NCBI GenBank assembly: GCA_009692425.1
Contig: SHZF01000037.1
Location: 1-45,396 of the forward strand
Source of the DNA: Myxococcales bacterium
GTDB taxonomy: Bacteria > Myxococcota_A > UBA9042
Direction: 5' to 3'
DNA: 45,396 nt
Positions 11,150 through 42,744 of the stretch are shown here, piece after piece. The notes under the pieces are model-generated. The model saw only the letters and a list, made by a program, of their open reading frames with translations. It ran no database searches and was not told the DNA's origin. How positions within the stretch are numbered: the stretch's first letter is position 1; the number at the start of each line of letters is the position of its first letter. A program made the translations under genes and the position numbers.

Positions 11150-11179
11150 TTGACTTGGCGGCGTGCTCTGCAATTCTAC
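11150..11179 (+). promoter_or_regulatory. Possible promoter of the lipoprotein operon
   Basis: A good -35-like TTGACT (11150-11155) is followed after 18 bp by a weak -10-like TTCTAC (11174-11179), just after a T-rich stretch (11140-11146). It lies about 85 bp before ATG 11265 of the first gene in the three-lipoprotein block. The -10 match is poor, so the exact site is uncertain. Confidence 0.35.
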
Positions 11180-11264: not shown

Positions 11265-14200
11265 ATGACAGGAACACAGAAACTCCGCAAAGCCACCCAG
11301 ACGTCGCCCTCGATCTGGACGACCGCCGCGCGGCAGTTGGCAACGCTGCGATGGGCAACGCTGCGATGGGCAACGCTGCGATGGGCAACGCTGCGATGGG
11401 CAACGCTGCCGTTGGCGGCGCTGCTGTTGGCGGTGCTACAGCTGGCAACACTGTCGGGCTGCGCGCAGATGACCGACGACGGGTTGGACAAGGCAGCTGG
11501 CGGTGGCAACGGCGCCGCCGGCAAGGGCGACGGCAGCGCAGGCGGTGGCAATGCCGCGGGCATGGCGGCCAACGGTGCAGGCGGCAAGGGCGCTGCCATG
11601 GCGACCGAAGGCGCGGGCCAGGGCGGCGGCATGTCGTCTGGCGGCGGCAGCGGCACGACCTGCAAGACCGACAAGGACTGCAAGAACGGCCAAGTGTGCA
11701 CGAAGTCCGGCTTCGCGAAGGCATGCGGCCCCAAGGGTGGCAGTTGCGTCGGTGCGGCCGAAGTCTGCAATGGCAAAGACGACGATTGCGACGGCCAGGT
11801 CGATGAGGGCTCGCCGTGTTCCGATGGCAATGCCTGCAACGGAGCCGAGAGTTGCCAGGCCGGCGCGTGCGTGGCAGGCGCGCCGCCCGCCTGCGCCGAC
11901 GCAGACGCTTGCACCTTGGACTCGTGCGATCCGGCCAAGGGCTGCCAGTACAAGCTGTTGGCGGGCGCGACGTGCGACGACGGCAACGCGTGCACGGGCT
12001 GCTCGCTGCCCGCGGGCGTGCAGTCGATGTACGCGGCTACGGTCGCCGCGAACTGCCCGGAGGAGAAATGGGTCGGCTGCAACGCGCTGTGGCTGCCCGG
12101 ATTCTACGACGGCATCGACAAGCACATCGCACGCTTCGACATTGCGCCCGGCGCCCGGCTCGACTGGAACGCCGACGGTACCGCACACCTGCACGGCCGC
12201 GTGACGTCGTACCACGTGACGGGCGGCCCGCAGACGCTCGGTGAGGCATGGGATCTGTCGATCGGGCTCCAGTACCGTGGCCAGGGCGCGGCCGGCGTGG
12301 GGTCGGGCGGGCCGAAGCTCGACGACGGGTGGGTCGTGCCGAAGTCGATCACCGACACATGGCACTATTTCGATATGATTCCAGGCAAGGCGACGCTGCA
12401 GAAGGTGGGCGGCGGCGGCGCGGTGGCGATGACGCAGAAGCCGGCCGGCTCCGTGTTCCCCTTCCAGATCGGCAAGGGTGCCAACGGCAAGACGATGGCG
12501 TTCGGGTCTTCGGCGTGGTTCGACTACGTCAAGACGACGCCCGACGGCGTGATCCAGGGCCACGGCGACGTCAACGTCGACCTTGAGAAGCTCAACATTC
12601 CCGATGACTGCGACACCTGCAAGGAGGGCACGTGCGCGCCCGGCAGCAAGAAGTCGTGCGACGACAAGAACGGCTGCACGGTCGATGCCTGCGATGCGAA
12701 GACGGGCACTTGCTCGAACGCCCCGCAAGACGCGGCGAGTTGCGACGACGGCCTGGTGTGCACGACTGGCGACGCGTGCAAGGGCGCGTATTGCCAGGGC
12801 GGCCCCGCCGACGACAAGGCGTGCGATGACGGTGAGCCATGCACCAAGGACAAGTGCACCCATGGCATCGGCTGCCAGAACCAGGGCGCCTTGCCGCACG
12901 TACCCTGCGACGACGGCAACGCGTGCACGGCCGGCGACGAGTGCTTCGGCAAGAAGTGCAAGGGCAAGGAGCCGACCGGGTGCGACGACCAGAATCCCTG
13001 CACCGTCGACAGTTGTGACGACAGCGCGGGGTGCCAGCACGCTCCCGTCGACGCGCCGGAGTCGGGCGCGGGCGTCCCGTGCGAAGATGGCGACGTCTGC
13101 ACCAGCGGTGAGGCGTGCGTAGGCGCGGCCTGCAAAGGCGGCACGCCCACGAGTTGCGACGACCAGAACGCGTGCACGGTCGATGCGTGCAACAAGCTGA
13201 CGGGCTGCACCCACACGGCCAAGGCCGGCGCCTGCGACGACGGCAATGCGTGCACCCAGGGCGACGCGTGCGGCAAAGGCCAGTGCGTGCCCGGTGCTTC
13301 GGCGGTCTGCGACGACGGCAGCCCGTGCACGAAGGATTCCTGCGACTTCAAGCAGGGCTGCCTGCACGCCCCCCTCGACGGCAAGTGCGACGATTCGTCA
13401 CAGTGCACGAGCGGCGAAACGTGTCAAGGCGGCGCGTGCGGCGGCGGCGCGCTGGTCAATTGCGACGACGGCAACCCGTGCAGCCAGGATTCGTGCCTGG
13501 CGGCGCTCGGTTGCATGCACGAGGGGCTGAGCGGGTCGGCGTGCGAAGACGGCGACGCATGCACCCAACAGGACGCGTGCGCCGCGGGCAAGTGCAAGGC
13601 GGGCAGCGCCACTGCGTGCGACGACGGCAGCGCGTGCACGGCCGACACGTGCAACCCCGCCAAGGGATGCGTGTTTGTTCCACTCGACGGCAAGCCGTGC
13701 AACGACGGCAACGCGTGCACGCCGGCCGATGTGTGCAACGGCGGCGCTTGCGTAGGTGGTGGGGCGACCGACTGCCACGACGGCAATCCGTGCACGACGG
13801 ATGCCTGCGACGCCAAGAAGGGCTGCTTCGCGGTGTCGGCCGATGGCAAGCCGTGCAACGACAAGAACGCGTGTACGAGTGGTGATCTCTGCAAGGCAGG
13901 GTCGTGCGTCGCCGCCGGCAAGATCGACTGCGACGACGGCAACGCGTGCACCGGCGAGGCATGCGAGCCGAAGAAGGGCTGCGTGATCACGCACCTCGAC
14001 GGCAAGGCGTGCAACGACAACAACGCCTGCACTACGGAAGACGCGTGCAAGGCTGGCCAGTGCACGGGCAAGACGCCGATGGCGTGCAGCGACGGCAACC
14101 CTTGCACGACAGACAGTTGCGAGGTCAAGGGCGGCTGCAAGTTCGTGCCTGCCGATGGCGCGCCGTGCAGCGACGGCACCGCTTGCACGGTCGGCGACTC

Positions 14201-16301
14201 CTGCCACGCCAGCGCGTGCAAGCCAGGTGGCGCGGCCGAGTGCGACGACGGCAACCCGTGCACGGCCGACGCCTGCGATGCCAAGGCCGGCTGCACGAAC
14301 AAGAACAGCGACGGCAAGCCGTGCTCCGACGACGACGCATGCACGGCGGACGACACCTGCCAGGGCGGGGCGTGCGGTGGCAAGTTCCCCGCGTCGTGCG
14401 ACGACAAGAACGCGTGCACGACCGACGGCTGCGACAAGCAGGGCGGCTGCTGGCACAAGCCGAAAGACGGCGCGGCCTGCTCGGACGGCAACGCGTGTAC
14501 GGGAGCCGATGTCTGCCTGTGGTCGAAGTGCGTGGCCGGCGCGGCGGTCGTGTGCAACGACGGCAATCCGTGTACGGCGGATGCGTGCACGGCCGACACG
14601 GGCTGTGGCGCGGTACCGATCGGCGGCGCGTGCGACGACGGCAACGCGTGCACTCAGGGCGATTCTTGCGGCGGCGGCGCGTGCAAGGGCGGGTCGGCAC
14701 CGGCGTGCGACGACGGCAACGCGTGCACCGCCGACACCTGCGATGCCAACGCCGGCTGCCAGCACGCCGACAAGAACGGCGCGGCGTGCGTAGACGGCAA
14801 CCCGTGTACCGCCAACGACACCTGCCAGGGCGGACAGTGCAACGGCGGCAAGGTGAACTGCGACGACGGCAATCCGTGCACGGTCGATGGCTGCGACAAG
14901 GCCAGCGGCTGCACGCACGAGGGCCTGACGGCAGGGGCGGGCAGCATCGACATCGTCAGCGACGCGGCCACGAGCGCAGGTGGCAAGCCGAGCGTGGCGA
15001 CGTGGAGCTTCCACAAGAGCTGGACGGCGCAAGTGCCGGGTGCCACCTGGATCTGGAGCGAAGTGCTGGTGTCGAACCCGGCGGTCGATGCAGTGGTGAC
15101 GTTCGAGCGCTCGTTCAACGTGTCGCCGGCCGCCGAGGGCCTTCAGGGCACGCTTGTCGTCGCCGCCGACAACAGCTACGTGTGCACGCTCAACGGCGTC
15201 AAGGTCGGAGAGGATGCCACCGAGTTCAACTACTTCGAGTCGTCGAAGGACACCTGGGCGCTGGGCACGGCACTGCAGCCGGGTGCGAACAAGTTGGTGT
15301 GTACGGTCAAGAACTGGGCGCAGTGGTGGGGTACGGCGTACACGAATCCGGCCGGCCTGCTGTACCGCTTGCAGGCGCAATGGACGGCCAAGGTGCCGTG
15401 CAGCGACGGCAACGGCTGCACGGTCGGCGACGTGTGCCAGGCCGGTGCGTGCAAGCCCGGGGCGCTCAAGACGTGCAACGACGACAACGTGTGCAGCGCT
15501 GACTCGTGCGACCCGGGCTCGGGCCAGTGCCTCGCCAAGCCGCTGTCGGGCCAGCCTTGCAACGACGGCAATCCGTGCACAGGCGTCTGCTTGAAGCCCG
15601 GCGTGAGCGCGTCGTACGAACTGTCGGGCGCGACGGGCTCGGGTGGGCACGGCTTCTGGCTCCCAGGCTTCTCTGGCGCCGGCACGGAGCGCATGGTGTT
15701 CAACCAAGATGCGCGCTTCGATGTGCTGGCCGGCAAGGGCCACATGTACGGCACGGCGACCGTGTTCGATGCCGGCGGCGGCTGCTGCGTCGGCGACGAG
15801 TGGAAGTTCGACTTCTGGTTTGCGTACCGCGGCCAGGGTCCTGCGGGCCAGGGCTCGGGCGGGCCGAAGTATGGTGTCATCAAGACGGTGCCCAAGGCGG
15901 TGACCGATACCTGGAAGTACTTCGACATGATCCCGGGGCAAGCCACCATGGTTCGCGTCGGCAATCCAAAGGAGTGGGCCGCGATCGGGCAGGCACCGGC
16001 GGACAGCATGTTCCCGTTCCAGTTGGGGCTCGGCGCGAACTACTTCTCGATGGTGCTGGGCGCCTCGTCGTGGCTGGTGTACGAGCGCCATGCCGAGAGT
16101 GGCAAGGTGTGGGGCGGCAAGGGTGACGTGAACATCGACATGACGCCGGCCAATCCGCCCGCGACCTGCGATGCGTGTCAGAACGGCCAGTGCACCGGCG
16201 GCAAGGTCAGTTGCGACGACGGCAACCCGTGCACCCTCGACGCCTGCAACCCGGCCAACGGACAGTGCTCCCATACAAAGATTCCAGGCTGCGATTGCTG
16301 A
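11265..16301 (+). CDS. Giant Cys-rich repeat lipoprotein with duplicated unassigned domain
   Basis: A 1678-aa predicted surface lipoprotein. The signal peptide contains a tandem A-T-L-R-W repeat and ends LATLSGC (lipid Cys about 66). A G/A-rich linker follows, then 36 copies of a C-x-D-x-x-x-C motif (mostly CDDGNACT or CDDGNPCT), in alternating types of about 20-25 aa each. Three non-repeat modules interrupt them: A (about residues 244-443), C (about 1224-1378, beta-sandwich-like) and B (about 1441-1632). A and B are clearly homologous: both have WLPGF, YRGQG-AG-GSGGPK, TDTW-YFDMIPG, FPFQ-G-GAN and GDVN-D. The repeats are presumably disulfide-bonded and may bind Ca2+ through their acidic loops (inference). 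ATG 11265 has GGGGGA 4 nt upstream. A longer frame from GTG 11163 is less likely. It ends 5 bp before the Kelch-like lipoprotein start. Confidence 0.8.
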   Translation: MTGTQKLRKATQTSPSIWTTAARQLATLRWATLRWATLRWATLRWATLPLAALLLAVLQLATLSGCAQMTDDGLDKAAGGGNGAAGKGDGSAGGGNAAGMAANGAGGKGAAMATEGAGQGGGMSSGGGSGTTCKTDKDCKNGQVCTKSGFAKACGPKGGSCVGAAEVCNGKDDDCDGQVDEGSPCSDGNACNGAESCQAGACVAGAPPACADADACTLDSCDPAKGCQYKLLAGATCDDGNACTGCSLPAGVQSMYAATVAANCPEEKWVGCNALWLPGFYDGIDKHIARFDIAPGARLDWNADGTAHLHGRVTSYHVTGGPQTLGEAWDLSIGLQYRGQGAAGVGSGGPKLDDGWVVPKSITDTWHYFDMIPGKATLQKVGGGGAVAMTQKPAGSVFPFQIGKGANGKTMAFGSSAWFDYVKTTPDGVIQGHGDVNVDLEKLNIPDDCDTCKEGTCAPGSKKSCDDKNGCTVDACDAKTGTCSNAPQDAASCDDGLVCTTGDACKGAYCQGGPADDKACDDGEPCTKDKCTHGIGCQNQGALPHVPCDDGNACTAGDECFGKKCKGKEPTGCDDQNPCTVDSCDDSAGCQHAPVDAPESGAGVPCEDGDVCTSGEACVGAACKGGTPTSCDDQNACTVDACNKLTGCTHTAKAGACDDGNACTQGDACGKGQCVPGASAVCDDGSPCTKDSCDFKQGCLHAPLDGKCDDSSQCTSGETCQGGACGGGALVNCDDGNPCSQDSCLAALGCMHEGLSGSACEDGDACTQQDACAAGKCKAGSATACDDGSACTADTCNPAKGCVFVPLDGKPCNDGNACTPADVCNGGACVGGGATDCHDGNPCTTDACDAKKGCFAVSADGKPCNDKNACTSGDLCKAGSCVAAGKIDCDDGNACTGEACEPKKGCVITHLDGKACNDNNACTTEDACKAGQCTGKTPMACSDGNPCTTDSCEVKGGCKFVPADGAPCSDGTACTVGDSCHASACKPGGAAECDDGNPCTADACDAKAGCTNKNSDGKPCSDDDACTADDTCQGGACGGKFPASCDDKNACTTDGCDKQGGCWHKPKDGAACSDGNACTGADVCLWSKCVAGAAVVCNDGNPCTADACTADTGCGAVPIGGACDDGNACTQGDSCGGGACKGGSAPACDDGNACTADTCDANAGCQHADKNGAACVDGNPCTANDTCQGGQCNGGKVNCDDGNPCTVDGCDKASGCTHEGLTAGAGSIDIVSDAATSAGGKPSVATWSFHKSWTAQVPGATWIWSEVLVSNPAVDAVVTFERSFNVSPAAEGLQGTLVVAADNSYVCTLNGVKVGEDATEFNYFESSKDTWALGTALQPGANKLVCTVKNWAQWWGTAYTNPAGLLYRLQAQWTAKVPCSDGNGCTVGDVCQAGACKPGALKTCNDDNVCSADSCDPGSGQCLAKPLSGQPCNDGNPCTGVCLKPGVSASYELSGATGSGGHGFWLPGFSGAGTERMVFNQDARFDVLAGKGHMYGTATVFDAGGGCCVGDEWKFDFWFAYRGQGPAGQGSGGPKYGVIKTVPKAVTDTWKYFDMIPGQATMVRVGNPKEWAAIGQAPADSMFPFQLGLGANYFSMVLGASSWLVYERHAESGKVWGGKGDVNIDMTPANPPATCDACQNGQCTGGKVSCDDGNPCTLDACNPANGQCSHTKIPGCDC
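11340..11408 (+). repeat. 15-bp tandem repeat (4.6 copies) inside a lipoprotein signal peptide
   Basis: GCAACGCTGCGATGG is repeated perfectly four times (11340-11399), followed by a 9-bp partial copy. In frame it encodes A-T-L-R-W per unit. Change in copy number would lengthen or shorten the signal peptide by five residues without shifting frame. Confidence 0.9.
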
Positions 16302-16306
16302 CCGGC

Positions 16307-17860
16307 GTGGGCGAGTCAAGCGGTCGATGGGCGAACGCGGCGGCGCTGCGAGCGGTTTCTCGGTTGCGCGCGCTGCCGCTGGGTCGCTGGTCAGGTGTGG
16401 TTCTGGCCGTTGGGGTCGTCGCGTGCGCGGGGCCAGAAGCACCCGACGCGGCTGCGCCCGCTGCGGTGGTGCCAGACTGCGGCTGTGCGGCTGCGGACAC
16501 AGCGGTTGCCACGGATCTCGCCGGTGCGGTACTCGACGCCGGGCGCGCACCCGATGCCGCCCCGGCCGCCCTCGAAGCGACGCCCACGTGCAGCCCAGCC
16601 TGGCTGGAGTTGGCCGCGAGCCCGACAGCGCTCGTGCCGCCGCCCGGCGAGGTGACGCTGACGGCCACCGTGGGCGGCGTCGATGTCAGCGCGGCGTGCC
16701 GGTGGGAAGTCGGGCCGGCATCGGTCTGCCAGCCTGGCCCGGTTGCCGGCAGCGTGCGGCGCGCCGGGCTGGGCACGTGTACGGCCGTGTGCCGGCTGAG
16801 CGGCGGCAAGTGCGGGCTGGCGACGTTGCGCGCGGTGCCGCAGACGGTGCTGTACGTGGTCGGCGGAGAGTCGCCGCAGTTTCCGCCGCCGTCGAGCGCT
16901 GCGGCCGAGGCCGTGCGCGTGCAGCGGTTCCGCACCCTTGACCGCCAGTGGGACAAGGCGGTCGCGTGGCTGCCGGAGTTTCGCATCCAGCCGGTGGTCG
17001 CCGCGCGCGGGCCGTGGCTCTATGTACTCGGCGGCGAAACCGGAGGCGACGCCTCGACGGCGGAGTTCTGGGACGTGTTCTTCCCGACGTGTGCCGAGTC
17101 GATCATCACGCCGACCCAGCTCAAGACCGAAGTCGGCTGTCGCGGCGTGCGGCGGCTCGACCTGCGCAGTGGCACGTGGGACACCCCGTTTCAGTGGCTG
17201 CACCCGCGCGTCGATGCCGGGTTCGCGCAAGACGGCGACACGCTGTGGGTCGTCGGCGGCCAGCGCGCCAAGACGATCGTAGTGCCTGCCCTGCCCGAGG
17301 TGCTGCACCGCATCGATCTGGCCACTGGCTCGGTCGCGCCCGGCGCCGCGCCGCCGCCGCCCGGGTTCGAAGTCAACAATCCCAAGCTGCGCTGGCCGCG
17401 CTGGGACCCGATCGTGCGCGACGGGGCGCCGACCGTGTTTGCGGCCCACGCGACGTGGACGTTGGCGCCGGACGGCAGCGCATGGCTCAAGGACGAACTC
17501 GGCTGGCCATGCCCGGAGAACCAGCCGCGCGCCGTGTTCGCTTTCCCAGGGCACGACGACGTGTTCGTGTTGCCAAGCCCGCAGGCCGAGGGACCCCTGT
17601 GCCCGCAATGCCCACAGCCCGTGGCGCGCCCCGACGGCACCCTGGCAGAGGTGTGCGCGCCGTGGCGGCTGCGCGACGGCAAGTGGACGGCGGCCGAACC
17701 GATGCCGTACGTGCAGCCGATCGCGGCCCATGATGGGCTGTACGCGCTGGCGTCCGATGGCGTGTACCGGCTCGCCACGCCGACGGGCAGTTGGCAGCGC
17801 GTGGGGCCGCCATTGCCGGCGGAGCGCTTTGGCGCAGCGGCTGTCGCGGTGGAGCAATGA
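16307..17860 (+). CDS. Kelch-like beta-propeller lipoprotein
   Basis: A 517-aa predicted lipoprotein. The hydrophobic segment GVVLAVGVVAC puts the lipid Cys near residue 40. A D/A-rich linker and a Cys-containing beta domain follow (about 65-170). From about 180 there are propeller-type blades with Kelch hallmarks: VLYVVGGE, LYVLGGETGG and LWVVGGQRAK, each followed by a variable loop and a W-containing strand (TWDTPFQWL, KWTAAEPMPYV). Kelch propellers bind carbohydrate or protein. The ligand here is unknown. The start is GTG 16307, 5 bp after the preceding stop. TTG 16364 is an alternative that gives a shorter n-region. The stop overlaps the next gene by 4 nt, so all three lipoproteins are probably co-translated. 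Confidence 0.72.
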   Translation: MGESSGRWANAAALRAVSRLRALPLGRWSGVVLAVGVVACAGPEAPDAAAPAAVVPDCGCAAADTAVATDLAGAVLDAGRAPDAAPAALEATPTCSPAWLELAASPTALVPPPGEVTLTATVGGVDVSAACRWEVGPASVCQPGPVAGSVRRAGLGTCTAVCRLSGGKCGLATLRAVPQTVLYVVGGESPQFPPPSSAAAEAVRVQRFRTLDRQWDKAVAWLPEFRIQPVVAARGPWLYVLGGETGGDASTAEFWDVFFPTCAESIITPTQLKTEVGCRGVRRLDLRSGTWDTPFQWLHPRVDAGFAQDGDTLWVVGGQRAKTIVVPALPEVLHRIDLATGSVAPGAAPPPPGFEVNNPKLRWPRWDPIVRDGAPTVFAAHATWTLAPDGSAWLKDELGWPCPENQPRAVFAFPGHDDVFVLPSPQAEGPLCPQCPQPVARPDGTLAEVCAPWRLRDGKWTAAEPMPYVQPIAAHDGLYALASDGVYRLATPTGSWQRVGPPLPAERFGAAAVAVEQ

Positions 17861-22534: not shown

Positions 22535-23971
22535 ATGGCCCTCGACGGCCCCGCGTTGTCCCCTTCTGATGCCGAAGCCGGTGCTGCTGCCGCCGGGACT
22601 GGCGACCCCGCACTGGCCGACCCCGCACTGGCCGACCCCGCACTGGCCGACTCTGGGGCGAGCGATCCCGCATCGATCGACCCTGTTTCGACCGATCCTG
22701 CTTCGACCGATCCCGCTTCGACCGATCCCGCGCCAGATCGCCCCCGCGGCCTGCACCTCGACACCCTCCTGCCCCTGCGCGATGCCGTCGCCGCCGCCTT
22801 CCGCCGCGAAATCGAAGGCGCCTTGAACGCCGTTTCGCGCGCACCTTTGGAGCCGGCCGACGCCGTCCACGACTTTCGCCGGGCCGTGCGCCGCTCGCGG
22901 GCCATCGTGCGCTTGGTGCGCGGTGCGTTGGGGCAGGCGACCTACGAGGGACTCGACCGTACTCTCGCTGAGCTGGGCCGTGCGAGTTCCGGCCTGCGCG
23001 ACGCCGAAGTGTTGCCGGCCGCCCTGCGCGCCATCGAGCCGCGCCCGAAACGGCGCCTGACGATCCTGCTCGAAGCACTCGAACAGAAGCGGGAACAGGC
23101 GTATGCCACGGGGACGGCCGCGCGCGTCCTCGGGGCGGCAGAGATGCGTCTGGCGCCGCTCGCCGAGGCGCTGCACGGAGGGCTGCCGCCCGAACTCAGT
23201 TGGGACGACCTGGTCGAAGGCCTGCGCCTTGCCTACCGCCGGGCTCGCAAGGCGCGCGACCTTGCGAAGAAGCGGCCGCACCATGTGCTGATCCACGACT
23301 GGCGCAAGCGGGTCAAGGAAGTGCGCCACCAACTCGAACTCCTGACGCCCGGCCAGGCCAACCACGCGGCCCAGGCCCGCGTCGATGCCTTGCGCGACCT
23401 GGGGCGCAGCCTCGGCGACACGACCGACGTGCTCGCATTGCGGCAGTGGCTCCAGCGCCAGAGCGGGCACGGCGAACTGCGCGCGACGTTGATGAAGGCC
23501 GCCAAGGCGCGCATCGTGGCCGGGTTCGATGCCGCACTGACGGCCAGTCGCGACGTGTTTCGCAGCAAGGCGCGGCGGTTTTCAGCCGAAGTGGCTGCAG
23601 ACGCCGAGGAGGCCTCCGACGACGCCCAACTGGCGCGCGACCTTGCGAGCATCATCGCGCGGGGGTCCGAGCCTGTTGCGGCGGCCGAACTCGTGGCCGA
23701 TGCCGAGCGCCCGCCCGCCGAAGCGGCAGGGCCGGAACGCGCCGAAACTGGACAGGCGGCGCCTGTAGCATTTCCGACAGCACGCCCCAAGACGCGGCGG
23801 ACGCGGCCGGCTCGCCCCAGCGCAGCGCCAAACGGAGCCGGTGCTGCACAGGAAGCGAGCCCAGCGGAAGCGAGCCCAGCGGAAGCGAGCCCAGAGGCGG
23901 CGAGGGCGTCACGCGACGACAGTGCCGGCCGCGAAGCCGACGAGGACGCGGGCCTCAGCGAGTCACCCTGA
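22535..23971 (+). CDS. CHAD-domain protein with low-complexity repeat termini
   Basis: A 478-aa protein. The central part (about residues 70-350) is a CHAD domain, an alpha-helical module rich in conserved basic residues that binds inorganic polyphosphate and associates with polyphosphate granules. Supporting blocks are VHDFRRAVRRSRAIVRLVRG (about 109-128) and its internal-symmetry partner VLIHDWRKRVKEVRHQLELL. These are the two copies of the H-x-x-R-K/R-x-x-R-x-x-R pattern. The N-terminal 65 residues are D-P-A-L-A and D-P-A-S-T pentapeptide repeats. The C-terminal 110 residues are A/E/P/R-rich with S-P-A-E-A repeats. Both tails are probably disordered. There is no fused CYTH/ppx domain. The window also has phaR, so storage-granule biology is a reasonable context (inference). 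Confidence 0.85.
   Translation: MALDGPALSPSDAEAGAAAAGTGDPALADPALADPALADSGASDPASIDPVSTDPASTDPASTDPAPDRPRGLHLDTLLPLRDAVAAAFRREIEGALNAVSRAPLEPADAVHDFRRAVRRSRAIVRLVRGALGQATYEGLDRTLAELGRASSGLRDAEVLPAALRAIEPRPKRRLTILLEALEQKREQAYATGTAARVLGAAEMRLAPLAEALHGGLPPELSWDDLVEGLRLAYRRARKARDLAKKRPHHVLIHDWRKRVKEVRHQLELLTPGQANHAAQARVDALRDLGRSLGDTTDVLALRQWLQRQSGHGELRATLMKAAKARIVAGFDAALTASRDVFRSKARRFSAEVAADAEEASDDAQLARDLASIIARGSEPVAAAELVADAERPPAEAAGPERAETGQAAPVAFPTARPKTRRTRPARPSAAPNGAGAAQEASPAEASPAEASPEAARASRDDSAGREADEDAGLSESP
22604..22648 (+). repeat. 15-bp tandem repeat, three perfect copies
   Basis: GACCCCGCACTGGCC three times, encoding D-P-A-L-A units in the CHAD protein N-terminus. Confidence 0.9.
22664..22738 (+). 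repeat. Degenerate 15-bp tandem repeat, five copies
   Basis: Five 15-bp units related to GATCCCGCTTCGACC encode DPASI, DPVST, DPAST, DPAST and DPAPD in the CHAD protein. Copies differ by a few bases each. Confidence 0.8.
23852..23894 (+). repeat. 15-bp tandem repeat near the CHAD gene 3' end
   Basis: GAAGCGAGCCCAGCG twice, plus a 13-bp third copy, encoding E-A-S-P-A units in the disordered C-terminal tail. Confidence 0.85.
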
Positions 23972-42448: not shown

Positions 42449-42744
42449 CCCGGATCCGTTGCGTTTGGCGTCCGCGGGAGGTTGGCCCGTGGTGACGCCG
42501 CACGGGTGCCGCAGCTACCGCAGCCGCCACAGAGGGGAACGGCGACCCCGGGACCGGCTGCCGCCATGGCAAACTGGCGGGTCGCCCCATCGACCAGCGC
42601 CATCGACCAGCGCCATCGACCAGCGCCATCGACCAGCGCCCCCCCCCGTCGGCGCAGGCCGCCAAGAGCGCGCACCCCAACGTCACGCCCCACGAGACTT
42701 CGGCCTGCCGCAGCAGACCGGCTTCGGCGGAGTCCACGGCGGCG
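42449..42744. other. Convergent intergenic region with 13-bp repeats and C9 tract
   Basis: A 296-bp region between the convergent bipA and glycosyltransferase-like genes. It holds four perfect 13-bp repeats (42589-42640) and a run of nine C (42639-42647). Short open frames cross it on the minus strand. One begins at ATG 42752 and has a Cys after a hydrophobic run (TLGCALLAAC), but it overlaps bipA by 250 bp, so I do not call it a gene. Confidence 0.5.
42589..42640 (+). repeat. 13-bp tandem repeat, four perfect copies
   Basis: ATCGACCAGCGCC repeated four times without mismatch, immediately followed by a C-tract. The 13-bp unit would shift any reading frame crossing it. Confidence 0.92.

Follow-up and report, generated by a model that had tools for sequence, protein, structure and literature searches.

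What is the domain that occurs twice within a long Cys-rich repeat protein of a Myxococcales bacterium, how is it accommodated among the repeats, and what might it do there? These questions are raised by an ORF at positions 11265..16301 of the window, by which we mean the whole stretch of 45,396 nucleotides that was analyzed; this gene, its protein features, and the gene that follows it lie on its forward strand. A GTG at 11163 opens the frame upstream and the stop is at 16301; the likely start codon is ATG 11265, and translation counted from the GTG, on which the residue numbers given here are based, yields 1712 aa. From its sequence, the product is predicted to be a modular surface lipoprotein, in which a signal peptide and a Gly-rich linker precede 18 pairs of CTDC half-repeats that hold two nested modules and one further β-domain. 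The signs of secretion are a signal-like N terminus (signal peptide region 11265..11459, with cleavage placed by the lipobox) and the lipobox L-S-G-C itself, the predicted lipidation site (11451..11462, residues 97–100); the same kind of site is present in several relatives with a readable N terminus. As an alternative to exposure on the surface, the repeat array could be periplasmic. The signal-peptide region also contains a 15-bp minisatellite (11339-11409; 4.7 perfect copies, coding for ATLRW repeats), and other short tandem repeats, perfect or near-perfect, occur at 22598-22731 (15 bp, in a CHAD-domain ORF) and at 42587-42640 (13 bp × 4.2). Directly downstream lies a gene for a predicted kelch-like lipoprotein (16307..17860; VVAC lipobox, start codon tentative), which is kept beside the module gene in three relatives at 44–48% identity. 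In one of these, genome G075, the ortholog of the module gene is split over several ORFs, through either assembly error or decay.

The repeats could be assigned to a known family. A regular expression for C-x-D...C-[TSN] finds exactly the 36 motifs that the original prediction had counted, and the array (11817..16298) matches Pfam PF00526, Dicty_CTDC, with an E of 4.4e-88 over 22 stretches (score 289 bits, cut-off 27); this is the sole Pfam match of the protein up to E 10. The 36 half-repeats form 18 alternating pairs of type 1 (CDDGNACTxGDxCxxGxC, about 25 aa) and type 2 (CDDGNPCTxDxCDxxxGCxH, about 27 aa), and the alternation runs on across the inserts. Module A lies in the second of the 18 pairs and module B in the last. 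A third, different non-repeat domain of ∼155 aa (ATWIW...LNG...NPAGLLYRL; 14919..15398) stands between two complete repeats, ahead of the last two pairs; it too is unnamed, with homologs in four related loci (59–63%) and two paralogous copies in another CTDC gene of the same genome.

The two modules, each ∼190–205 aa long, are homologous by direct comparison. BLASTP aligns them with 154 bits and 43% identity over 227 columns (43–45% overall), and the E of 1e-51 means that their likeness is not due to chance. The sequence motifs from which the relationship had been proposed (WLPGF, YRGQG, GSGGPK, TDTW, FPFQ, GAN, and GDVN) all occur in both modules and in the same order. The insert that constitutes module A, predicted to be an all-β domain, extends from Cys280 to Cys483 (12000..12611; modeled 188-aa core, 12072-12635) and that of module B from Cys1476 to Cys1669 (15588..16169). 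Each interrupts a single type-1 half-repeat, CDDGNACTG ... CDTCKEGTC for A (11973..12638) and CNDGNPCTG ... CDACQNGQC for B (15558..16193). What had been described as truncated repeats at the junctions is in each case a single type-1 CTDC repeat, cut in two by the domain that its loop holds. The motifs at the junctions need small corrections: the entry reads NACTG-C in module A and NPCTG-V-C in module B, and the exit is C-D-x-C-x-x-G-x-C instead of C-x-C-x-x-G-x-C.

This nesting is a consistent property of the domain in CTDC proteins. In all 23 copies examined, drawn from three CTDC-type protein families, the domain sits within a type-1 half-repeat, in the loop that leads from its second Cys to its third, starting after the repeat head, C-x-D/N-x-x-x-C-[TN], and stopping before the repeat tail, D-x-C...C. 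The insert itself contributes an invariant Cys at its start (position C10 in alignment A4) and, as a rule, another near its end. Among the 1548 strict repeat heads of this genome, those at modules A and B are the only two that are split by an insert of ∼200 aa after which the sequence resumes with a repeat tail. Two further long gaps begin at short, noncanonical heads, the remaining long inserts in this genome's CTDC proteins come after complete repeats, and where such a repeat seemed open, inspection by eye attributed this to a chance head within a repeat tail or to a different Cys-rich motif. A few type-1 repeats, in three proteins, carry 5–9 extra residues at the same position, from which it follows that the type-1 loop tolerates insertion. 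Placement within a repeat is limited to CTDC proteins; in MopE-type proteins, by contrast, the domain sits between motifs.

That one gene has two copies, with junctions that are alike, might be taken to reflect a recent tandem or cassette duplication, and the original prediction had the duplicated unit include its junctions. A copy that carried along its split repeat is consistent with what we observe, but the event is old. When 45 copies were placed in a maximum-likelihood tree, the A-type copies from seven genomes of the family, drawn from its genera (this one, G114, G221, G075, G138, G258, and G281), form one clade (support 100/99), and the B copies of this genome, G114, and G221 form a separate one (98/98). 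The identity of A and B is just 43–45%, and an extra Cys pair, NCPE...GCN, is common to the A-type copies and missing from B. A recent duplication within the gene is therefore very improbable, and the separation of the two clades led us to reject it; by their sequences, A and B are an ancient paralogous pair that has since diverged. Elsewhere in the tree, copies at matching positions pair up in G258 and G281, in two genes of G211, and in G214 and G058, and because same-position copies group together, they have been inherited position by position over a long time within a conserved architecture.

The distribution of the domain is rare and patchy. A search with module A against 379 sampled Myxococcota genomes, followed by retrieval of the loci and an iterated profile, recovered 43 copies, and a later profile search of the same genomes brought the set to 24 positive genomes and added three further, distant copies, making 46. 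A genome scan with one narrow peptide (alignment A3) returned nine loci, all from metagenome-assembled genomes with Proteobacteria, Deltaproteobacteria, Myxococcales, or bacterium in their titles, and a plasmid collection queried with three forms of the domain gave no match; the domain is hence documented here within the Myxococcota.

Within this phylum, the domain serves with several types of anchor, as judged from the sequence features beside it. It is found between MopE-type motifs (PF11617) at two loci and, by eye, at two others; with TIGR02232 Cys repeats and TIGR04215/PF20597 at three loci; and with TIGR04215 alone at a fourth. In addition, in three distant homologs the domain stands alone in an exported protein that ends in a PEP-CTERM-like tail (TIGR02595 above its cut-off in two of the three, PF07589 in one), which bears out the resemblance to PEP-CTERM exported proteins that the original prediction had mentioned. 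The module protein has no such tail in NCBIfam searches and ends in a CTDC repeat. Exosortases (PF09721) number four in each of the three genomes with PEP-CTERM forms, and none was found in the 11 CTDC-form genomes searched, namely, this one and 10 others (G281, also with the CTDC form, was outside this set); this pattern fits the anchor type of the host proteins. Collectively, the occurrence of the domain on varied anchors and stalks across the phylum suggests a reusable cell-surface binding module.

To which fold does it belong? The domain was predicted to be unnamed, and no match was found in Pfam (2025 copy) or NCBIfam 20.0: Searches with 42 copies gave just stray, weak matches of single members (best E 0.027), and the domain profile matched nothing among PDB sequences (best E 1.8), avidins included. 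A match to a well-characterized Pfam family, the result that had been named as telling against the proposal, was thus sought and not found, nor did unrelated folds for the two modules come to light: AlphaFold2, with a 42-row alignment, gives a confident all-β model for the 188-aa core of module A, the one module that was folded (pLDDT 92.3, pTM 0.86; 89.5 pLDDT with the flanking half-repeats), and B aligns in the same family. The models show a meander of long strands. This meander, and the frequency of avidins among the top Foldseek matches with both models, might point to a ligand-binding up-and-down β-barrel of the avidin or calycin kind. Yet Foldseek returned nothing significant in the PDB (best E 0.16 and 0.24 for the two models) or in BFVD (best E 0.31); the top avidin match has E 0.16, probability 0.60, and TM scores of 0.30/0.41, and the avidin matches in general have TM scores of about 0.3/0.42 (about 0.3 to the query), an rmsd of 7–9 Å, and E values that all exceed 0.1. 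Together with the lack of a sequence match to avidins, these values make a barrel of this kind improbable. Because nothing in either database was significant, we assign no fold, and on the models and alignments we treat the domain as a definable family that has no name.

As to function, the reading that we consider more probable than not, by analogy, is that the domain is a head that adheres or binds a ligand and is carried by a stalk rich in disulfides. It is proposed because the partners of the domain are parts used for surface display or adhesion (the lipobox with CTDC repeats, MopE-type PF11617, TIGR02232 with TIGR04215/PF20597, and PEP-CTERM-like tails) and because of the analogies with TraA and Dictyostelium proteins taken up below; as there is no significant structural neighbor, binding is suggested through guilt by association. 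The consistent nesting, the exosortase pattern, the confident all-β models, and the C-type lectin, NHL/teneurin-type propeller, and MAM-like domains of other CTDC proteins in this genome also speak for this reading. A lipid-anchored CTDC stalk, braced by disulfides and perhaps rigid, would present two copies of the all-β domain, with module A near the membrane-proximal end, module B at the free end, and the third β-domain ahead of the final two pairs. The all-β domain would be a mobile extracellular module; it plugs into the type-1 loop that follows the second Cys, and the terminal Cys residues of the insert (C280 and C483 in A) may close its neck so that the stalk continues through. The ligand would probably be a glycan, a prey surface, or self. 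A purely structural role, in which the domain has no ligand of its own and spaces or branches the stalk or the matrix, seems unlikely to us. Such a role would accord with the way in which the domain keeps the repeat array in frame, with a terminal Cys on each side, and with the fact that Dictyostelium CTDC proteins are mostly matrix proteins (PMC4931340), but the stand-alone anchored form with PEP-CTERM-like tails has no stalk to space, and the conserved polar and aromatic residues of the domain (R, W, Q, GAN, and GD) look, in our judgment, like more than packing.

The proposed head-on-stalk arrangement recalls several known systems while differing from each. In Myxococcus TraA, a PA14 head is carried on Cys-rich repeats that have been proposed to form a rigid stalk (PMC3325183); the module protein resembles TraA as a head on a Cys-rich stalk in the Myxococcota but differs in both anchor and head, having neither PA14 (Pfam up to E 10) nor the TIGR04201 repeats and MYXO-CTERM of TraA (NCBIfam up to E 10). 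The CTDC proteins of Dictyostelium (ecmA/ecmB, PsiA, PsiF), which are matrix and signal proteins (PMC4931340), belong by curated threshold to the same repeat family and likewise have long Cys-repeat arrays. They are secreted, as the bacterial protein may be too, and sometimes bear a PA14 head (3 of the 14 CTDC proteins of D. discoideum; PMC4931340, Table 4). The bacterial protein differs in its predicted lipid anchor and in its head, which is a domain other than PA14 and sits within a repeat. The PEP-CTERM exported proteins share with it the domain, in the three stand-alone homologs from genomes with exosortases, but the module protein lacks the tail and its genome has no PF09721 match. Finally, the domain lies upstream of the adhesive-like choice-of-anchor A domain (TIGR04215/PF20597 pAdhesive_15; putatively ice-binding-like) at four loci, while neither TIGR04215 nor PF20597 is present in the module protein.

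The repertoire of CTDC proteins in this genome is far larger in scale than that of Dictyostelium, with about 83 CTDC-array ORFs, read from 70 fetched stretches, against 14 proteins. These ORFs, 16 of which run to the edge of a stretch and a few of which may be fragments, comprise 1696 repeat heads and 108,759 aa, or about 326 kb, 6.6% of the 4.94-Mb assembly; by a simple rule, a lipobox-like site is present in 54 of the remaining 67. Other domains found in three of these proteins include C-type lectin, NHL/teneurin-type propeller, MAM-like, and plastocyanin-like domains. The expansion is shared by the family of this genome: a loose first-look count, with repeats unconfirmed, gives 799–2412 CTDC candidates in each of the same-family genomes, and where genomes of other classes have any match, the same loose count gives tens to about 280. 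In the open literature searched, a comparison drawn in the paper on TraA (PMC3325183) was all that we found on bacterial CTDC repeats.

With 46 copies and a confident model, the domain family is ready for a Pfam or NCBIfam entry and for structure work, and its nested position offers a case from nature in which a disulfide repeat has taken up a whole domain. A wider picture can be drawn, which we put forward as speculation and hold to be doubtful as a whole: the family would represent a new fold, a surface recognition module swapped between exosortase tails, MopE-type stalks, choice-of-anchor A, and lipidated CTDC stalks, which in one bacterial lineage was put into the loop of a Dictyostelium-type repeat, and the CTDC lipoprotein repertoire would serve a multicellular matrix, self-recognition, or prey capture, in parallel to social amoebae. 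CTDC repeats were named after Dictyostelium, where they are tied to matrix and signaling; here they are expanded, to a scale for which the open literature searched has no report, in a Myxococcota family that is represented in this analysis by metagenome-assembled genomes.
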